A stretch of DNA of 64,000 nucleotides from Nitrososphaeraceae archaeon (GTDB lineage Archaea; Thermoproteota; Nitrososphaeria; Nitrososphaerales; Nitrososphaeraceae), in NCBI GenBank assembly GCA_031316115.1, contig JALDRC010000003.1:124001-188000 (forward strand). The letters are read 5' to 3'. Both the position numbers and the translations under genes were made by a program. Below are positions 18,840 to 60,356 of this stretch, one piece after another; positions within the stretch are counted from its first letter, which is position 1; every line of letters starts with the position of its first letter. A model generated the notes under the pieces. It was not told the DNA's origin. It made no database searches and saw nothing but the letters and a program-made list of their open reading frames with translations.

Positions 18840-19610
18840 CTACTTGTTCTTTGTTGAGTCTGAAGTGCTTGTTGAGTCTGAAGTGCTTGTTGAGTCTGAA
18901 GTGCTTGTTGAGTCTGATTTGGAGACACTTTGTGAAAGATATGACTCCTGGAAGATAATTTGTTTTAGAGATTTAATAAATTTAAAAATATCTGTAGAAA
19001 CTGCACGTTTGAGAATTTGCAATCCTTCCAAAAGAAAAAAATCTTCAGGAATATGAATTTCAAGAATTTCTCCGTTGATTTCGAATTTTATTTGCTCTGT
19101 GTTGATAGGAAGACGTCTTTTGATTAAATGAATTATCTTGTCTTCATCTGTATCCAATTTCTTAAGAATATTGATATTATATACTAGATTTCTACTTGCA
19201 AGTCTATGATTATAATCTATTTGAACACGACCTGACCCTATATATCGTACTATTCCTGCCCTTTCATCAATCTCCACAACATCACCAACTTTGATATCGG
19301 AAGCTTTTTCACCTAATTTTCTTTGTGGAATCATTCTAACTTTGCTAGGGTCCCTTTGGCCGAATCCTTTTTCTGGAGGAATTTCTATATCTAGTGTCTC
19401 ACCAACATTCCCTTTTGAAAGGACTTCATCCACCCCTTTAAGAACCCATCCTTCCCCTACCGATACTAGTCGAGGCTCATATTTTTTCACTGGGTCGTAT
19501 AAATTCGAATCTTTTGCATCGTTTTCTCGTGTAGTTTCAAAAATCTCATTATTATCTTTTATTCTAGCAGTATAATCTAATAATATTAAGGATCCTTTTT
19601 CAAAAGGCAT
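18840..19610 (-). CDS. FKBP-type peptidyl-prolyl isomerase with a repetitive Ser/Thr/Asp tail
   Basis: A 256-aa cytosolic isomerase and chaperone of the SlyD-like archaeal FKBP class. The FKBP fold (LILLDYTARIKDN, GWVLKGVDEVL, IPPEKGFGQRD) is interrupted by the chaperone insert (about 85-135, GDVVEID...GSGRVQIDYNH) and followed by a helical/beta C-domain to about residue 230. The last 25 residues are near-perfect repeats of SDSTST, encoded by an 18-bp tandem repeat. No signal peptide is present. The gene converges with the G1P dehydrogenase gene. Confidence 0.9.
   Translation of the reverse strand: MPFEKGSLILLDYTARIKDNNEIFETTRENDAKDSNLYDPVKKYEPRLVSVGEGWVLKGVDEVLSKGNVGETLDIEIPPEKGFGQRDPSKVRMIPQRKLGEKASDIKVGDVVEIDERAGIVRYIGSGRVQIDYNHRLASRNLVYNINILKKLDTDEDKIIHLIKRRLPINTEQIKFEINGEILEIHIPEDFFLLEGLQILKRAVSTDIFKFIKSLKQIIFQESYLSQSVSKSDSTSTSDSTSTSDSTSTSDSTKNK
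18852..18918 (-). repeat. 18-bp tandem repeat encoding the FKBP tail
   Basis: The unit gttgagtctgaagtgctt occurs three times perfectly plus a partial fourth copy. Read on the minus strand it encodes SDSTST repeats at the C-terminus of the FKBP protein. The multiple of three keeps frame whatever the copy number. Confidence 0.9.
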
Positions 19611-37679: not shown

Positions 37680-37720
37680 CTGCGAGAGATTGCCAGCCTT
37701 CGGCCGCGGCACTCTCGCAG
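37680..37720. other. GC-rich nested hairpin
   Basis: A 41-base GC-rich island in very AT-rich DNA. The outer arms ctgcgagag (37680-37688) and ctctcgcag (37712-37720) pair perfectly over 9 bp. Inside, tgcc (37691-37694) pairs with ggca (37708-37711) around agccttcggccgc. The arrangement resembles a tRNA acceptor stem joined directly to a D-arm, with the anticodon and T arms missing. It could be a tRNA remnant, an element end, or an independent structured site. Confidence 0.6.
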
Positions 37721-38239
37721 AATCTTGTTGTCAAATATTACAGGTAAACAACTCAGCAGTATCGAGATATCCAATTCCTAAAGCAAAATGCAAAAAATAC
37801 AATATCCTCACATATACAAGGAGTGCTACCTTATGAATATTCTAATTGCATCGATGGTTTAGACGATAGAATAAAAGAAAGTTGGTTGATAGCCACCAGG
37901 TCGCAGAAGACTGGAAATGAAAAATAGAGATTGTCTTCATTAGACTTGATTAAGAATACTTACAGCACAAAAATGGATTTATTGACTGATACTTCCCTAC
38001 TCAAAGACTCTAAAGTTCGTAGAAGATATTAAACAAAAACTAGAAGATTCATTCATCAGCCACCAAGAACAACACTCATTGACAACCAAGTTTTAACATG
38101 TTGATGGGATCTCTGATAAAGTAGAATGACATTCAAAGATCTTGCGAGGCTGGTAAATAACAACCTCGCAATGAATAGGAACTCCGGATATCAACATGCA
38201 CCCACCAGTCATGTATCATCAACCCAGTCAGAATGCTTC

Positions 38240-39604
38240 ACAGAGCAGTTTTGCCAGAAGCAATTTTGGATCTGGGTTGATATTATTAAACGTAGAACTC
38301 TATATATTCAGACTAAATGGAAATGTGGTTTTAATCATATCACAAAATTACCACGAAATAATTAAACTATGAGGAGAATCCATTATTTGACTACCAACAA
38401 ATAGTCTTTGATGCACAAGAAAGTCACAGACACTTATTTATTTTGAAGGCAACTTAATTACGGATCAGTGAGTTATTTCTTCGTTATATGGCGTGGCTTG
38501 CATTAAAGAATAATGATTATCAGAATTCACAGATAGTTATTGTGACTAATACCAATATTGATTTGGCAATTAGACTTATCATGAGAATGAAGGGATTCTT
38601 TGAACCTTTAGGAATATTGTTTGATAGTAAAGAAAATGTATTGGAATTGAATAAATGCATGATAGAAGCATATCCTTCCCTCCATATAGATAGTTTTAGA
38701 TCTTTGGATAATCCCAAATTCATATTATTGGATGAATGCAATTTTTTCCCAAAAGGTCATCAGGAAGATGTCAGAAGCGTTTCGGAGAGATATATTGCTA
38801 AAAGTAATCCCTACATAGTTTTAGAATCAACTCCAAAATCACCAGGGAGATGAATGCGAACAATTGGGCAAGAACCAGAAGAACCATGTCAGTACAAGAG
38901 GATCAATTTAGATTACAATTATGTTTTGAATAAACTCTACACCGATGAAGATAATGAAAAAGCAAAACAATCGCCTTCATTGGAAACGGTTTACAATCTC
39001 AAATACTTCTGTAAAATTGGTAATGTATTTTCTCTAACTGATATCGATAAAGCGATAGAATTAGGAACCAGATACAAAGATTTACTAATTAATCCATTTG
39101 CTCTAAATTTATTGGGTATAGACTTTGGATTTGATTTTAGTGTAACCGATCTATACATTACAGAACTAGATCGACAACTACAAATTGTAAGAATAATAGT
39201 AGGTTATAAATATGATAAGAAAACACCTAGTGTAACCGCGGATAGAATGTTCCAATTGCATTCCCAAATATCAAATCTTTCATGGTTCATAGACTGAAAA
39301 CCGTGGAGGAGTAAACGAATGTAAGAGTAAACACGGTGAAAACCTTGAGTGGGAAAAAGTTGAAAATATCGATATTGAAGATGGTTGTATAATTTCAGTA
39401 AACTTTGGTAAAGAACACAAACAGATACTCCAACGCTTATATCAACTTCTTACAAAACAAAAGGTAGCAATTGATCCCAAGTACGATAAACTTATTCTAT
39501 CATTGAAGACTGGCTATGCAGAAGAGTTTTCATTAGACAAAATATCTGCATTTCACAACCATCATATAAACAGTTTACGGCTTCTTTGTAAACGTGTACG
39601 ATAG
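38240..39604 (+). pseudogene. Terminase large-subunit-like ATPase/nuclease, copy B, broken
   Basis: A recognisable viral packaging ATPase across several frames. It begins near FWIWVDIIKRRT and CGFNHITKLP, then FDYQQIVFDAQ, then a damaged Walker A region (LFILKAT, stop, LRISE), MAWLALKNNDYQNSQIVIVT, the Walker B-like FILLDECNFFP, and VLESTPKSPG as a coupling motif. After a stop it resumes with YNLKYFCKIGNVFS and the nuclease-like LLGIDFGFDFSVTDLYI, ending at 39604. At least three stops or frameshifts make it inactive. The fold order, ATPase then RNase H-like nuclease, fits terminases of head-tail viruses. Confidence 0.65.
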
Positions 39605-39644: not shown

Positions 39645-40095
39645 AATGGTAGATATACTTGGTACACAAAATAAGAGAAAATTTAACCACATTAACTGGA
39701 AACTATTATAGTTCAAAATCATAAGAGGATAAAAGATATCGTGTCCACTGTGAAACCTTTGGATTTCCATATAAGAAATTAAAGCCAAGAATATATGTTG
39801 ATTTAGAACTGACGGACAGATATCTTCAGACTCTGAATCATGGTTGCAATCCTATGAATGTGGATCATTTATCCTGTAGAACATGGAAAACAAGAGAGTA
39901 ATGTTGCAGGATTCAATGAAGTACCAGAATCAATTCATAACAACAAGCGCTTGAAGATAGAATATTTCATTCAACCCAGAAATAAAAGTTACTAGAATGA
40001 TAGAATGAATTGACTAGAACCTAATGAATTGGACACAGACATTCAACAACGAATTGATAGAGATGCTATACTAATTAGTTATTCTGATAATTGTG
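39645..40095 (+). pseudogene. Decayed element gene downstream of the terminase relic
   Basis: Fragments of a protein are readable in shifting frames on the plus strand: MVDILGTQNKRKFNHINWK, KRYRVHCETFGFPYKKLK, RIYVDLELTDRYLQTLNHG, SNVAGFNEVPESIHNNK and IEYFIQPRNKSY. Position right after a terminase gene is where a portal gene lies in head-tail viruses, but the sequence itself does not show it. The gene is dead. Confidence 0.4.
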
Positions 40096-40120
40096 TAGAT
40101 TTATAAAATATAATGTAATT

Positions 40121-40924
40121 GAAGAGTAGGCAGAAGTATAGGAAATACTAACCTTCTACCGTGGAACACTACTCTCCAAATGCAGTACAATCCCAGTCCG
40201 CTTTATTATAAGTTAGTAAATATAGTATTTAGGATTTTAAGATAAAAGTTAGTGAAAACTAGAGAGTAAGATAATAGAATGAGGATTAATTAATTACTAC
40301 TATCTCACTCTCCAGATTGTTTTCCTGCCTATACGGCAATATATCATGGGAAATATAATATTTAGTAGTTTAATAAAATGAAAGCCTGAGAGTAATTAGG
40401 TATAAGAGACACAGTACAAGCTTTTACCCTATTTTTAATATCATTCTCCGGTGAAATATATAGTCGTGTATAACATCTGTGGGAATTATGATATTTTTTG
40501 GTTATAAAATAGTGAAATAGAAGTTAGAGGGAGTAGTGGAATGAATCGTCGACAATCTAATATATAGACCCTACTATATTTAGACATGATCGTACTCTGG
40601 CTCGAGGTGTTGCGAATGTAATTTATAATTTTTTATTATACATTATTTGACTATTTATACCTAGGCCCAATTTCGGTATTGAAATCATATTTATTTTTTA
40701 TATTTGATCTTGGATTCAGAAATAATAACAGTAAAAGGGGAGAGTGGTAGAAACAGGAAGTTTACAAGTTCGCACCTACCATAATGCTCTCCGTGCTATG
40801 ATATACTTGGTATTTTTTATACTAATCGTAATATCTAGACTTTGGTGATAAAAGTTAGTAAAAAATGAAAGGTAAGATAGTAGAATATTTGACCTATATT
40901 CCTCCTAATACTATCTTATTCTCC
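40121..40924. repeat. Array of about six degenerate hairpin units
   Basis: Hairpin-forming units start near 40121, 40261, 40386, 40524, 40738 and 40871, spaced about 125-215 bases. Each has a 5' arm like gagagtaagatagtaga and a 3' arm like tactatctcactctcc around a loop of 15-35 bases. Examples: gagagt/actctc with aagataatag/ctactatct at 40262-40312; ggagag/ctctcc with tggtag/ctacca at 40739-40792; gtaagatagta/tactatcttat at 40872-40919. The units are joined by similar spacers (gataaaagttagtgaaa, aatatttagtagttt). Stems differ between units yet keep pairing. Units 3 and 4 are weaker. Confidence 0.7.
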
Positions 40925-41014
40925 TGGAGTTTATTCTTTGGGATATAGTAATATGTTAATTATGATATTTAGCAGTTTAATTTACTAACTAATTAGCCAA
41001 TAATCTATTATAAT

Positions 41015-41224
41015 TTATAAACTTCTCTTATCCAGATATTCGTAAAATGCATTGGTCACTACAGTAATTTTCATATTGTTATCAATCGTGTAATGCTTCA
41101 ACTTCTTTCTCAAACCATAATCCAAATGTATAGTTGTCTTTGCAATTATTTGATTCAACGGGATTCTTCTAGGTTCTACCTCTGTTGTGGAGTTTGAAAT
41201 CCTATTATTATAAATGGTTAACAA
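41015..41224 (-). CDS. Possible ribbon-helix-helix DNA-binding protein, 69 aa
   Basis: A short frame next to the hairpin array. With a TTG start at 41224 it reads LTIYNNRISNSTTEVEPRR and then IAKTTIHLDYGLRKKLKHY, TIDNNMKITVVTNAFYEYL. The pattern of one strand (TTIHLD) followed by two helices is like a ribbon-helix-helix repressor. A TATA-like tract (tatttaaatatat) lies upstream on the minus strand. It may be intact, unlike its neighbours, and could regulate or bind the adjacent array. The start codon is uncertain. Confidence 0.4.
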   Translation of the reverse strand: MLTIYNNRISNSTTEVEPRRIPLNQIIAKTTIHLDYGLRKKLKHYTIDNNMKITVVTNAFYEYLDKRSL

Positions 41225-41335
41225 GCATATCTGTCTATAAATATCTCCATTGATCCATAATGACAGAATTCCATATATATTTAAATATTGAGTTTTACAA
41301 TAAACGATATGCCAACAAAAAGCAGATAAACTCAA

Positions 41336-41975
41336 GCAGACATATCAACATAACAAAAGAAGAAAGAGATTCCTGAAATATTCAAAGGTTGGAACAACCA
41401 TACAGAGTAATCATATAGAAAGCAACAATTAACCAATTTGATACCTGAAACTCTAGATTATAAGAACAAGAACTTTTTAATGAGCATATATGCAGATAAA
41501 TATCCAGAAGCAATCCAGAAAGAGGATACCAAGATTGTAAGAGTAAAAGCATCTGATTACAATAGCAAGATAATAAAAAGAATTTGTTTATTGATATGAG
41601 AACTGGTATGGACGTGACTGGCGTAATAGAAGAGTTCCACCGGTGACAGACGTCTTAGAAGGCTTATACATGGAGCAAGATACTGAACCGATCTACGATA
41701 GAGAACAATTAATAGGTTATAACAGAGTAGGACAACATGAAGTAGACTATGTTTCATTCAGAAAGCATTAGATGATATTATAGCAAAGAGTACGATAAAC
41801 AAACATAACATCAATTTTTTAGTAAAGACTTCAAGGCAAAGAAATGACTAATATACTTATGAACAGTTTGTAAATTCAAAATTTGAACAATATGTTGAAC
41901 AAATGATGTATCCAGATGGCCCAACAAGGCACACTTACAACCACCAGAAGCAGAAACAAAAAGATACAGAGTAAC
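41336..41975 (+). pseudogene. Decayed element gene of unknown function
   Basis: Plus-strand fragments in several frames can be joined: INITKEERDS, LIPETLDYKNKNFLMSIYAD, KYPEAIQKEDTKIVRVKASD, WYGRDWRNRRVPPVTD as approximated across breaks, VLEGLYMEQDTEPIYDREQL, IGYNRVGQHEVDYVSFRK and FVNSKFEQYVEQMMYPDGPT. The protein was hydrophilic and about 200 residues. No family recognised; it is part of the decayed element. Confidence 0.4.
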
Positions 41976-42016
41976 TAAAGCAACAGAAACAATATTCCTA
42001 AATTTTATTTATTTAT

Positions 42017-43514: not shown

Positions 43515-43751
43515 GTGTTAGATCTTAGAATTTTCTTGATGAAAGGTTTAGATGATTTTGTAACTGCATCTATCTTTCTATCGTTATTGCCATTATGTAT
43601 TATTGCTGTCGTTGTTTCTGAGGTTTTAACAAGATCTACCAATTATAATTCTGACTTGCTTTCTAAATTAAATAATTATTGTTGGAACCCTCATGTGATA
43701 ACAACGTGTGCTAGGAGTAACCCTCCTTCTGTTCTTACGAGATTTAGCTAA
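43515..43751 (+). CDS. Small membrane-type ORF next to integrase copy B
   Basis: A 78-codon frame with one hydrophobic span (ASIFLSLLPLCIIAVVVSEVL) and a C-terminal segment KLNNYCWNPHVITTCARSN shared with the frame at 36246-36527. It is divergent from the integrase, and the DNA upstream is also duplicated in copy A. It may be a genuine small membrane protein of the element. The opposite strand also has a 52-codon frame here, so coding strand is not certain. Confidence 0.4.
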   Translation: MLDLRIFLMKGLDDFVTASIFLSLLPLCIIAVVVSEVLTRSTNYNSDLLSKLNNYCWNPHVITTCARSNPPSVLTRFS

Positions 43752-44010
43752 GCGGCCAACCTGAGCAGATGCAGGAATCTTTATCTCTTTTTGGCCTTGC
43801 TCCACCCAGGACGTCAGTTTCATTCTAGACAAAAAAACTCAGGTATAGGCCATCATAGATATTTTCATCTTGTCCAGATAGCTTTTCTGTTACGGCGCCA
43901 ACTGTCTCCAGTTAATTATCACTAATTTGGGTGCCTGCTTTGAGGGAGGAGTTTCCTCTCTTTATTGAGTAACTCGTTCTCTAGCTCACAATTTAAAATC
44001 AAAGGATGTT
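43752..44010. other. Right edge of the decayed region
   Basis: About 260 bases, less AT-rich than the surroundings (for example cgccaactgtctccag near 43895). On the minus strand fragments such as ELENELLNKERKLLP and LETVGAVTEKLSGQDENIYDG can be read, and a 52-codon frame beginning MKLTSWVEQGQKE. This may be the tail of another lost element gene. Confidence 0.35.
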
Positions 44011-58055: not shown

Positions 58056-60356
58056 TTATTGGTTATCAGTCATATTTGGTTTATCTATAAGTTCCATTAT
58101 ACAGGTTTTAGGACTTTTGGTTATTTCTCCACTACAACTTGAAGCTCTATTGATCTGATATCCAAATAAGTCAATTGGCTCTACTTCATATTTTCCAGGA
58201 TCGATGGATATAAACTGAATATCAGAACTTCCTCTAATAACATCAGGAACAGGATTTTCTCCTTTAACTACAAATGTAAAATCTGATGGTGCTTTATCTC
58301 CTCCATGAATATTTAATACCTCTATGATAACCCTTAATTTTGCATCATTCAATGCTGGTGGTATAGGTCTATTGTTATTGCTAATTTGAGAGGTTTCCTT
58401 GGGAATAGACGGTTCTAATGGCTTGGTTGTTACTTGGCTCTGGTTGGTTGTTACTTGGCTCTGGTTGGTTGTTACTTGGCTCTGGTTGGTTGTTACTTGG
58501 CTCTGGTTGGTTGTTACTTGGCTCTGGTTAGTGGCTAGAGATGGAATTTGCTGTATATCATCTAAGGTGATTACGCAATCTTTACTATCACCTGCTCCTA
58601 TTGTTCCTGAACAACCAGCAGAATATATTGCTTTGTAGCCTATTGATTCAGATATAGTGACATTATAATTTCCTGCCTTTAGCGAGACTACTTGTCCGTC
58701 AGGATTTCCTAGAAATGAACTAGGAGTAGCTTGTATACCTGTTACTGAAATGTTAAAATCTTTAGGTTGTTTATCGCCACCGTCATTATTGATAACTTTG
58801 GTTAAAATCATAACTTGAGAGGAAGATGAATCGGTTAGAGAAGGTACCTGTTTACCAAATATGCTTATATCAGATATGCTAGACCAGTTATTCATACTGT
58901 TACCAGTGACTGTAATCCTTACAAATTTGGCTGTTGTATCTGGAATATCATAGACTTCTAATTTTGACGTCTCTCCGCTGCTTCTATTCGTGAATATTTG
59001 TCTATAATCACTTCCATCAGAGGATACTGAAACTGCAAAGTCTAGATTTCTAAGGTGTCCCTTATACCAAGCTATTCCAATATCGCAAATCTCTGTTTCT
59101 TTACCTAGATCTATATCAATCCAGGATTCCAAACCAAGATTTGACCATCTGGTTTCTAAATTACCATCCACAGCGTCTACTTCCGGATGATTAGGTTGAT
59201 TTCCTATAGATGATACTCGTTCAGGGTTTATAGGAATTTCTGGGCATGGTGAGGGGAAGCCGGGAACAAATGGATTATTTATATCGATATCTGTAATACT
59301 AGCCCAATTATTCAGAGTATTCCCTATTACATCAATTTTTAAAAATCGTGTTTTGATATCAGGTATATCATATTTTTCTGGTTCACTAGTGAGACCACTG
59401 CTTGTTTCTGAGAAAATATTACTAAAGATTTCACCATCAGATGATGTAGAAATTGTAAATGTCATTTTCCTCTCGTCACCCTTGTACCATGATATATCAA
59501 TGTTACAAACTTCTTTTTCCGTTCCAAGATCCAAAATTAACCAAGAATTAAGTCCTAAGTTCGACCATCTAGTTGATTTTTTACCATCAATCGCATCTGT
59601 AGGTGGACGGCCCTCTTGATTTCCTATCGCTCTAACATCTACAGGTACTTCTTTTTTACAGGCTGTGTTATCTCCAAAAGATACAAAAACTATTTGACCA
59701 TCTAGATTAAACTTGTTATTAGCAAATCCATCATATACTTCTGCATTAGTTAAAGCTCTGTCCCAAATTCGGATTTCATCTATTTCTCCTTTAAACAATT
59801 TGTCTTTAAATAATGAATTTGCACCTACCGTTATACGAGTTTTTCCAGTCGAATCAGGTTCAGCTCCTTCTGTATTCATGTCGTTAACTAAAACTCCGTC
59901 GACAAATAATTTCAGAATTGAACCATCATAGGTTAAAGTCACATAATGCCATTCATTATCGTTTAGTTTATTTGGTGAGCTAATAAAATAGTTTGTTCCA
60001 TCTAAAGTTTCAAATCCAGCATGCAGTTTTCCCATAGGATCGAAAAAAATTCCAAAATTCATATTTTCTCCATTAGCTTCTGATCCTATGCCTCCTTTAT
60101 CTATGAGAAAAGAGTCAACCGAGTCATTGGAACCAGTTTTAAACCAAGCAGCTACCGAAAAATTATTCAATTGAAATAATTCTGAATCTTTAATATATTT
60201 GAAATTAGTACCTGTGAATTGACCAGTTTTACCTATTTGTGCATCTGCTGAGTATTTTTGAATAATATTAGAAGCTAGAATTATAAATGCTAAAAAAGTA
60301 ATAAATATCGAAATCGTCCTTATATTTTTATTATATATATATTTTGACTTCGCCAT
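58056..60356 (-). CDS. Large exported LamG and discoidin (F5/8 type C) domain protein
   Basis: A 766-aa surface protein. After a membrane leader (11-34) comes a LamG/concanavalin domain (about 40-205: FSVAAWFKTGSND, EWHYVTLTYDGSILKLFVDG, GEIDEIRIWDRAL). Two F5/8 type C domains follow (about 225-365 and 375-510), each with an RWSNLGLxSW segment. Then two related beta domains (about 520-605 and 680-765, each with a GGDK...DF opening and a Cys pair) flank a linker of five TNQSQVT repeats. LamG and discoidin domains bind glycans; this suggests adhesion or matrix binding. Confidence 0.88.
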   Translation of the reverse strand: MAKSKYIYNKNIRTISIFITFLAFIILASNIIQKYSADAQIGKTGQFTGTNFKYIKDSELFQLNNFSVAAWFKTGSNDSVDSFLIDKGGIGSEANGENMNFGIFFDPMGKLHAGFETLDGTNYFISSPNKLNDNEWHYVTLTYDGSILKLFVDGVLVNDMNTEGAEPDSTGKTRITVGANSLFKDKLFKGEIDEIRIWDRALTNAEVYDGFANNKFNLDGQIVFVSFGDNTACKKEVPVDVRAIGNQEGRPPTDAIDGKKSTRWSNLGLNSWLILDLGTEKEVCNIDISWYKGDERKMTFTISTSSDGEIFSNIFSETSSGLTSEPEKYDIPDIKTRFLKIDVIGNTLNNWASITDIDINNPFVPGFPSPCPEIPINPERVSSIGNQPNHPEVDAVDGNLETRWSNLGLESWIDIDLGKETEICDIGIAWYKGHLRNLDFAVSVSSDGSDYRQIFTNRSSGETSKLEVYDIPDTTAKFVRITVTGNSMNNWSSISDISIFGKQVPSLTDSSSSQVMILTKVINNDGGDKQPKDFNISVTGIQATPSSFLGNPDGQVVSLKAGNYNVTISESIGYKAIYSAGCSGTIGAGDSKDCVITLDDIQQIPSLATNQSQVTTNQSQVTTNQSQVTTNQSQVTTNQSQVTTKPLEPSIPKETSQISNNNRPIPPALNDAKLRVIIEVLNIHGGDKAPSDFTFVVKGENPVPDVIRGSSDIQFISIDPGKYEVEPIDLFGYQINRASSCSGEITKSPKTCIMELIDKPNMTDNQ
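58424..58530 (-). repeat. 21-bp tandem repeat in the LamG protein gene
   Basis: Five nearly identical copies of ggttggttgttacttggctct. Read on the minus strand they encode TNQSQVT, each with one N-x-S glycosylation sequon. The 21-bp length keeps frame, so copy-number changes would only lengthen or shorten the linker. Confidence 0.9.

Follow-up and report, generated by a model that had tools for sequence, protein, structure and literature searches.

A multi-copy family of hairpin arrays in archaeal integrative elements, possibly encoding a minus-strand non-coding RNA

The window, a 64,000-nucleotide stretch (G000:C14:124001-188000) of a Nitrososphaeraceae genome of 3.16 Mb in 20 contigs (G000), contains six related units at 40121-40926. 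Reading and folding of the sequence agree on these units, in line with the six-unit hairpin array proposed in a preliminary description of this DNA, and the stem sequences quoted there are present. The unit starts are spaced by 138, 127, 143, 208, and 128 nt from u1 to u6. The spacers between the units are AT-rich and mutually related, and variants of one spacer motif (AAATATAATATTTAGTAGTTTAA) are found at 40218-40240 and 40958-40980. The array and its surroundings comprise the following features, with fold energies and z-scores given per strand.

37705..38093, plus strand: remnant of a TerS-like gene (tblastn, three pieces in shifted frames)
38126..39598, plus strand: frameshifted remnant of a terminase large subunit gene (tblastn; intact relatives match PHROG terminase families)
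39668..40103, plus strand: remnant of a CxxC zinc-finger gene of ~150 aa, immediately before the array (tblastn, three pieces)
40121..40177, minus strand: hairpin unit u1 (minus -22.8 kcal/mol, z -4.2, 0/300 shuffles; plus -14.1 kcal/mol)
40259..40315, minus strand: hairpin unit u2 (unbroken 19-bp stem on minus; -25.4 kcal/mol, z -6.3, 0/300 shuffles)
40351..40373, no strand assigned: AT-rich spacer motif AAATATAATATTTAGTAGTTTAA (pattern search of the own genome)
40386..40451, minus strand: unit u3, a decayed hairpin (z about 0 on either strand; its homologue in the C17 array folds)
40529..40598, minus strand: unit u4, a decayed or rearranged hairpin (z -0.2 on plus, -1.0 on minus)
40737..40794, minus strand: hairpin unit u5 (z -2.2 on plus, -2.5 on minus)
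40865..40926, minus strand: hairpin unit u6 (z -2.5 on plus, -1.8 on minus)
41012..41021, minus strand: candidate TATA-like box TTTATAAATT (86 nt ahead of u6 as read on minus; weak on its own, with a longer conserved element at comparable distance in sister species)
41024..41143, minus strand: RHH gene, on the better-folding RNA strand (tblastn, 39% identity; the C17 relative matches RHH_1)
41309..41998, plus strand: remnant of a 233-aa element gene (tblastn, 48% identity over 233 aa)

When each unit was compared with 300 dinucleotide shuffles, u1, u2, u5, and u6 were found to fold, whereas u3 and u4 fold no better than shuffled sequence, so the earlier count of four surviving stems out of six stands. 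The plus-strand z-scores are -1.9 (u1), -2.4 (u2), -2.2 (u5), and -2.5 (u6), with values near 0 in u3 and u4; the z-scores become modest once wider flanks are included in the fold. The protein genes of this element are decayed, yet four hairpins persist. The array had been placed inside a decayed element, which is correct for the window copy, a terminase-bearing integrative element, and not for the array family. Elsewhere in the window, perfectly repeated 18- and 21-base units lie in tandem at 18851-18917 and 58423-58529, within long ORFs or next to them.

A blastn search with the window array found 12 places in G000, and about ten array loci are present in this genome (window included). The other arrays read are located on contigs C17, C3, C5, C1 (two arrays), and C12; a spacer pattern search added two more arrays on C12, and C20 has a single hairpin. 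The number of units per array ranges from one to nine, and all units within one array share direction. The outer stem of this type is GGAGAG/CTCTCC. The alignment of these hairpins is poor, and a covariance model exists for the sister type only (see below). In the C3 array (L010 3000-3290, minus strand), the last two units change to the outer stem CCAGATGGTAGAGA / TCTACCATCTGG.

Every array found in G000 sits in an element context with conserved gene order. In most cases a TerS-TerL-zinc-finger module directly precedes the array, which lies on its 3' side, and several arrays face an RHH gene in antisense orientation. No recognizable terminase genes were found at the C5 locus and one C12 locus, and a zinc-finger copy on C1 (about 182 kb) is without an array. 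The C20 element (G000:C20:3299-22308; L052 and L192) is an apparently intact copy of ~19 kb bounded by a 19-nt direct repeat (C20:3299 and 22290). It carries one hairpin and genes for a primase-helicase, TerS, TerL, the zinc finger, the RHH protein, the 233-aa protein, and a tyrosine integrase, as well as a Kef-type antiporter-like gene. No capsid or portal gene was recognized among the ten C20 proteins scanned, and some of its ORFs have no match. Transposases near the arrays are of DDE types. Searches of a plasmid collection, and of IMG/VR with two TerL queries, gave no match.

Some of these host elements carry a predicted terminase but no recognized capsid gene, a combination of integrase, TerS, and TerL that is apparently shared with NitKor-E1, a terminase-only integrated element described as enigmatic and as a probable relic (PMC6563490). 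Unlike NitKor-E1, the G000 elements are multi-copy in one genome, include the apparently intact ~19-kb copy, and have a primase-helicase; they also bear hairpin arrays.

The stems are kept complementary while their sequence changes. Exchanging arm halves among the six window units weakened folding on the minus strand, from a mean of -16.7 to -12.2 kcal/mol, and 16 of 5,000 permutations were as good as the native pairing. Over 37 own units, such exchange costs about 6 kcal/mol (0/2000 permutations as good), and the sister units gave likewise 0/2000. Among 88 distinct sister hairpins, which were selected by the outer seven pairs alone, the inner five pairs are standard in 65% of cases, compared with 46 ± 2.5% after shuffling (0/5000). 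These swap and inner-pair tests treat units as independent and ignore relatedness; within that scope, they reveal the pairing-preserving compensatory changes expected of a structured non-coding RNA and support the earlier proposal that the pairing is under selection and does not result from mere copying.

Several comparisons point to the minus strand as the informative one, opposite to the strand used in the preliminary description. On this strand u1 is more stable by about 9 kcal/mol, and u2 reaches only -14.1 kcal/mol on the plus strand. Better folding on minus was also observed for 37 own units (p 0.016; chosen by eye) and 66 sister units (p 5e-5; chosen by arm patterns), and the longest helix measures 10.4 bp on minus versus 8.2 bp on plus (p 0.01). 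On the plus strand, A.C mismatches exceed G.T in all three unit sets, with the non-last sister units falling short of significance; this bias could equally reflect strand-biased deamination or single-stranded DNA hairpins. In a pattern-free scan, stems of at least 13 bp in the window array occur on minus only (u2 at 40255-40318), and stem clusters in the C17 and C3 arrays are likewise confined to that strand. The better-folding strand is that of the RHH gene and is antisense to the terminase genes.

Arrays with a similar AT-rich spacer and an unrelated outer stem (CATAGCC/GGCTATG) are dispersed in five of five sister species, whereas G000 has none. One of them, in G060, lies downstream of a decayed TerL gene and has stems unrelated to those of the window. 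The distinct last-type unit of these arrays was modeled separately, and its covariance model gave 112 matches in the five sister species, two in the Nitrosocosmicus MAG G019, and none in the remaining genomes of the family. The presence in G019 possibly reflects horizontal transfer or a binning error. Many sister arrays lie between ordinary chromosomal genes, and most have no terminase gene on the stretch examined around them. For the element gene E152, 9 of 17 cases fall on array contigs versus 1.25 expected (contigs of every length weighted alike); the association between arrays and integrases in the sister genomes is not significant. Beside terminases of other genera, the pattern-free scan found no shared long-stem clusters and one isolated cluster (L054) inside coding sequence.

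Among the neighbors of the sister arrays, a small gene of about 65-80 aa with a WW..ELECK motif was noted near about eight arrays (L101, L104, L105, L108, L174, L176, L178, and L193). The G019 array (G019:C78; L166 3206-5106) has a promoter-like element and is located near a 149-aa gene, a relative of which was also found near arrays in G062.

On the minus strand, sister arrays are preceded by the promoter-like element AACATAGAATGAGAATTT-N4-AAWTWATAAATA, which as a rule lies 92-126 nt ahead of the first arm. With up to three mismatches allowed, this pattern has 30 matches spread over six genomes, the five sister ones plus G019, and the reversed pattern has none. It has no match in G000, G007, G027, or G043. 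Three G000 arrays have in common a TTATAAGTAATAAATCCC-like stretch, which is a weak promoter candidate. An intrinsic terminator or U-run at the minus-strand 3' end found no support (18/50 vs 25/100), and k-mer enrichment for a conserved loop motif was weak and mostly reflected the stems.

Eight array loci have no Rfam match up to an E-value of 1, and the only Rfam matches in the window, RNase P and a weak snoR64, are outside the array; the archaeal RNase P RNA gene is at 43706-43989 (minus strand, 176.9 bits), at a distance of 2.7 kb. The array is not a CRISPR, as had been noted before, because its units are diverged and its spacers are related to each other. Integron attC arrays were considered for their hairpins and tyrosine recombinase, and the spacers here are too short for cassettes. 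In a comparison based on general knowledge, unit size and neighbors do not fit type III toxin-antitoxin repeats. The BOX elements of streptococci, boxA-(boxB)n-boxC, resemble this family in having modular first, internal, and last units in variable number, in forming hairpins if transcribed, and in having many intergenic copies (PMC3049150). Unlike BOX, the present family is archaeal, has stems that differ between units and species, has its own promoter-like element, and in the genome of the window sits in terminase-bearing integrative elements. REP/BIME repeats with RAYT transposases are also clustered imperfect palindromes that are genus-restricted, have many copies, and keep complementary changes (PMC2817692). 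However, their alternating orientation is not seen here, where all units of an array point one way, and no RAYT gene was found beside the arrays. GOLLD, ROOL, and OLE are large structured non-coding RNAs, some of which reside on prophages or mobile DNA (PMC12286853); the present arrays differ in being built from repeats in varying number, with no fixed global fold seen and no Rfam match. Since no description of such an array family was found in the literature either, within limited coverage, the family appears to be novel.

The array is probably, by a modest balance, a minus-strand multi-hairpin non-coding RNA gene of a thaumarchaeal integrative-element family. The RNA reading is favored because it covers all three of the selection on pairing, the strand bias, and the promoter-like element, and these same features suggest that the array is transcribed. 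An array of small structured RNAs was one option of the preliminary description and is now the leading one, given the observed strand bias, the pairing tests, and the sister promoter-like element. A site acting at the DNA level, with single-strand hairpins or duplex tandem palindromes recognized by an element protein (the primase-helicase, TerS, the tyrosine integrase, or the adjacent RHH protein), would account for the pairing and the strand bias only if single-stranded, as single-stranded DNA also tolerates G.T better than A.C; duplex palindromes offer no reason for such a bias. Such a site could be a replication origin or a packaging, partition, or recombination site, and the element does encode a primase-helicase, with most own copies located right after TerS-TerL and beside the RHH gene. 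The replication or packaging signal suggested earlier is consistent with this position after the terminase genes in the window and is weakened by the sister arrays, which lie mostly away from terminases and are many per genome, an odd pattern for a signal of either kind. Only one hairpin is present in the intact C20 element, and the promoter-like element favors RNA. We regard a DNA-level site as unlikely.

We are equally doubtful that the units are non-autonomous BIME, BOX, or MITE repeats, spread in trans by a transposase or recombinase and functionless for host or element, in which the arms would stay complementary because the mobilizing enzyme needs a hairpin. Such selfish repeats would account for the dispersal of sister copies between ordinary genes and for the pairing, and the variable unit number, the genus restriction, the complementary REP palindromes (PMC2817692), and the modular, co-transcribed BOX elements (PMC3049150) are in their favor. 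Nevertheless, the G000 arrays are all in an element context with conserved gene order, a dedicated promoter-like element would be unexpected, and no mobilizing enzyme was identified. Chance palindromes in AT-rich DNA combined with simple duplication could explain the shuffle-level u3 and u4 and the modest z-scores with flanks; this explanation is contradicted by the conservation and swap tests, with homologous hairpins at ten loci, 0/2000 in the swap test, and a sister-species family, and is thus highly improbable.

If the array is a minus-strand RNA gene, its promoter would sit next to the RHH gene, where the coordinates of the array are highest, and the transcript would be a series of hairpins, differing in number from array to array, with AU-rich linkers between them. 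A hairpin-binding protein may then meet several similar hairpins in succession on one transcript, which would serve as its multivalent scaffold or sponge. Sponge RNAs such as CsrB and RsmZ have several similar hairpins per transcript; the likeness is one of working principle only, and the array differs from them in having no established loop motif or known protein partner. A sponge or scaffold function is a guess that we hold to be rather unlikely as it stands. A broader and still less likely possibility is an RNA system that archaeal integrative elements share across the genus. Its tandem promoter-driven hairpin RNAs would have stems rewritten wholesale between species, with architecture, spacer, and strand held constant; this would point to a binding partner that evolves along with them and to a part in inter-element interference or, in terminase-bearing elements, packaging.

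The array family is multi-copy, sits inside integrative elements in G000, folds with a minus-strand bias, and in sister species has a conserved promoter-like element. It would mark integrated elements that otherwise stay cryptic, and it would be an example of one architecture bearing different stems in sister species. The host elements bear on an open question, as NitKor-E1 was deemed a likely relic (PMC6563490) and the G000 elements are multi-copy, with one copy apparently intact. RNA-seq of soil ammonia-oxidizing archaea would have a clear target in this multi-copy hairpin family if it is promoter-driven.
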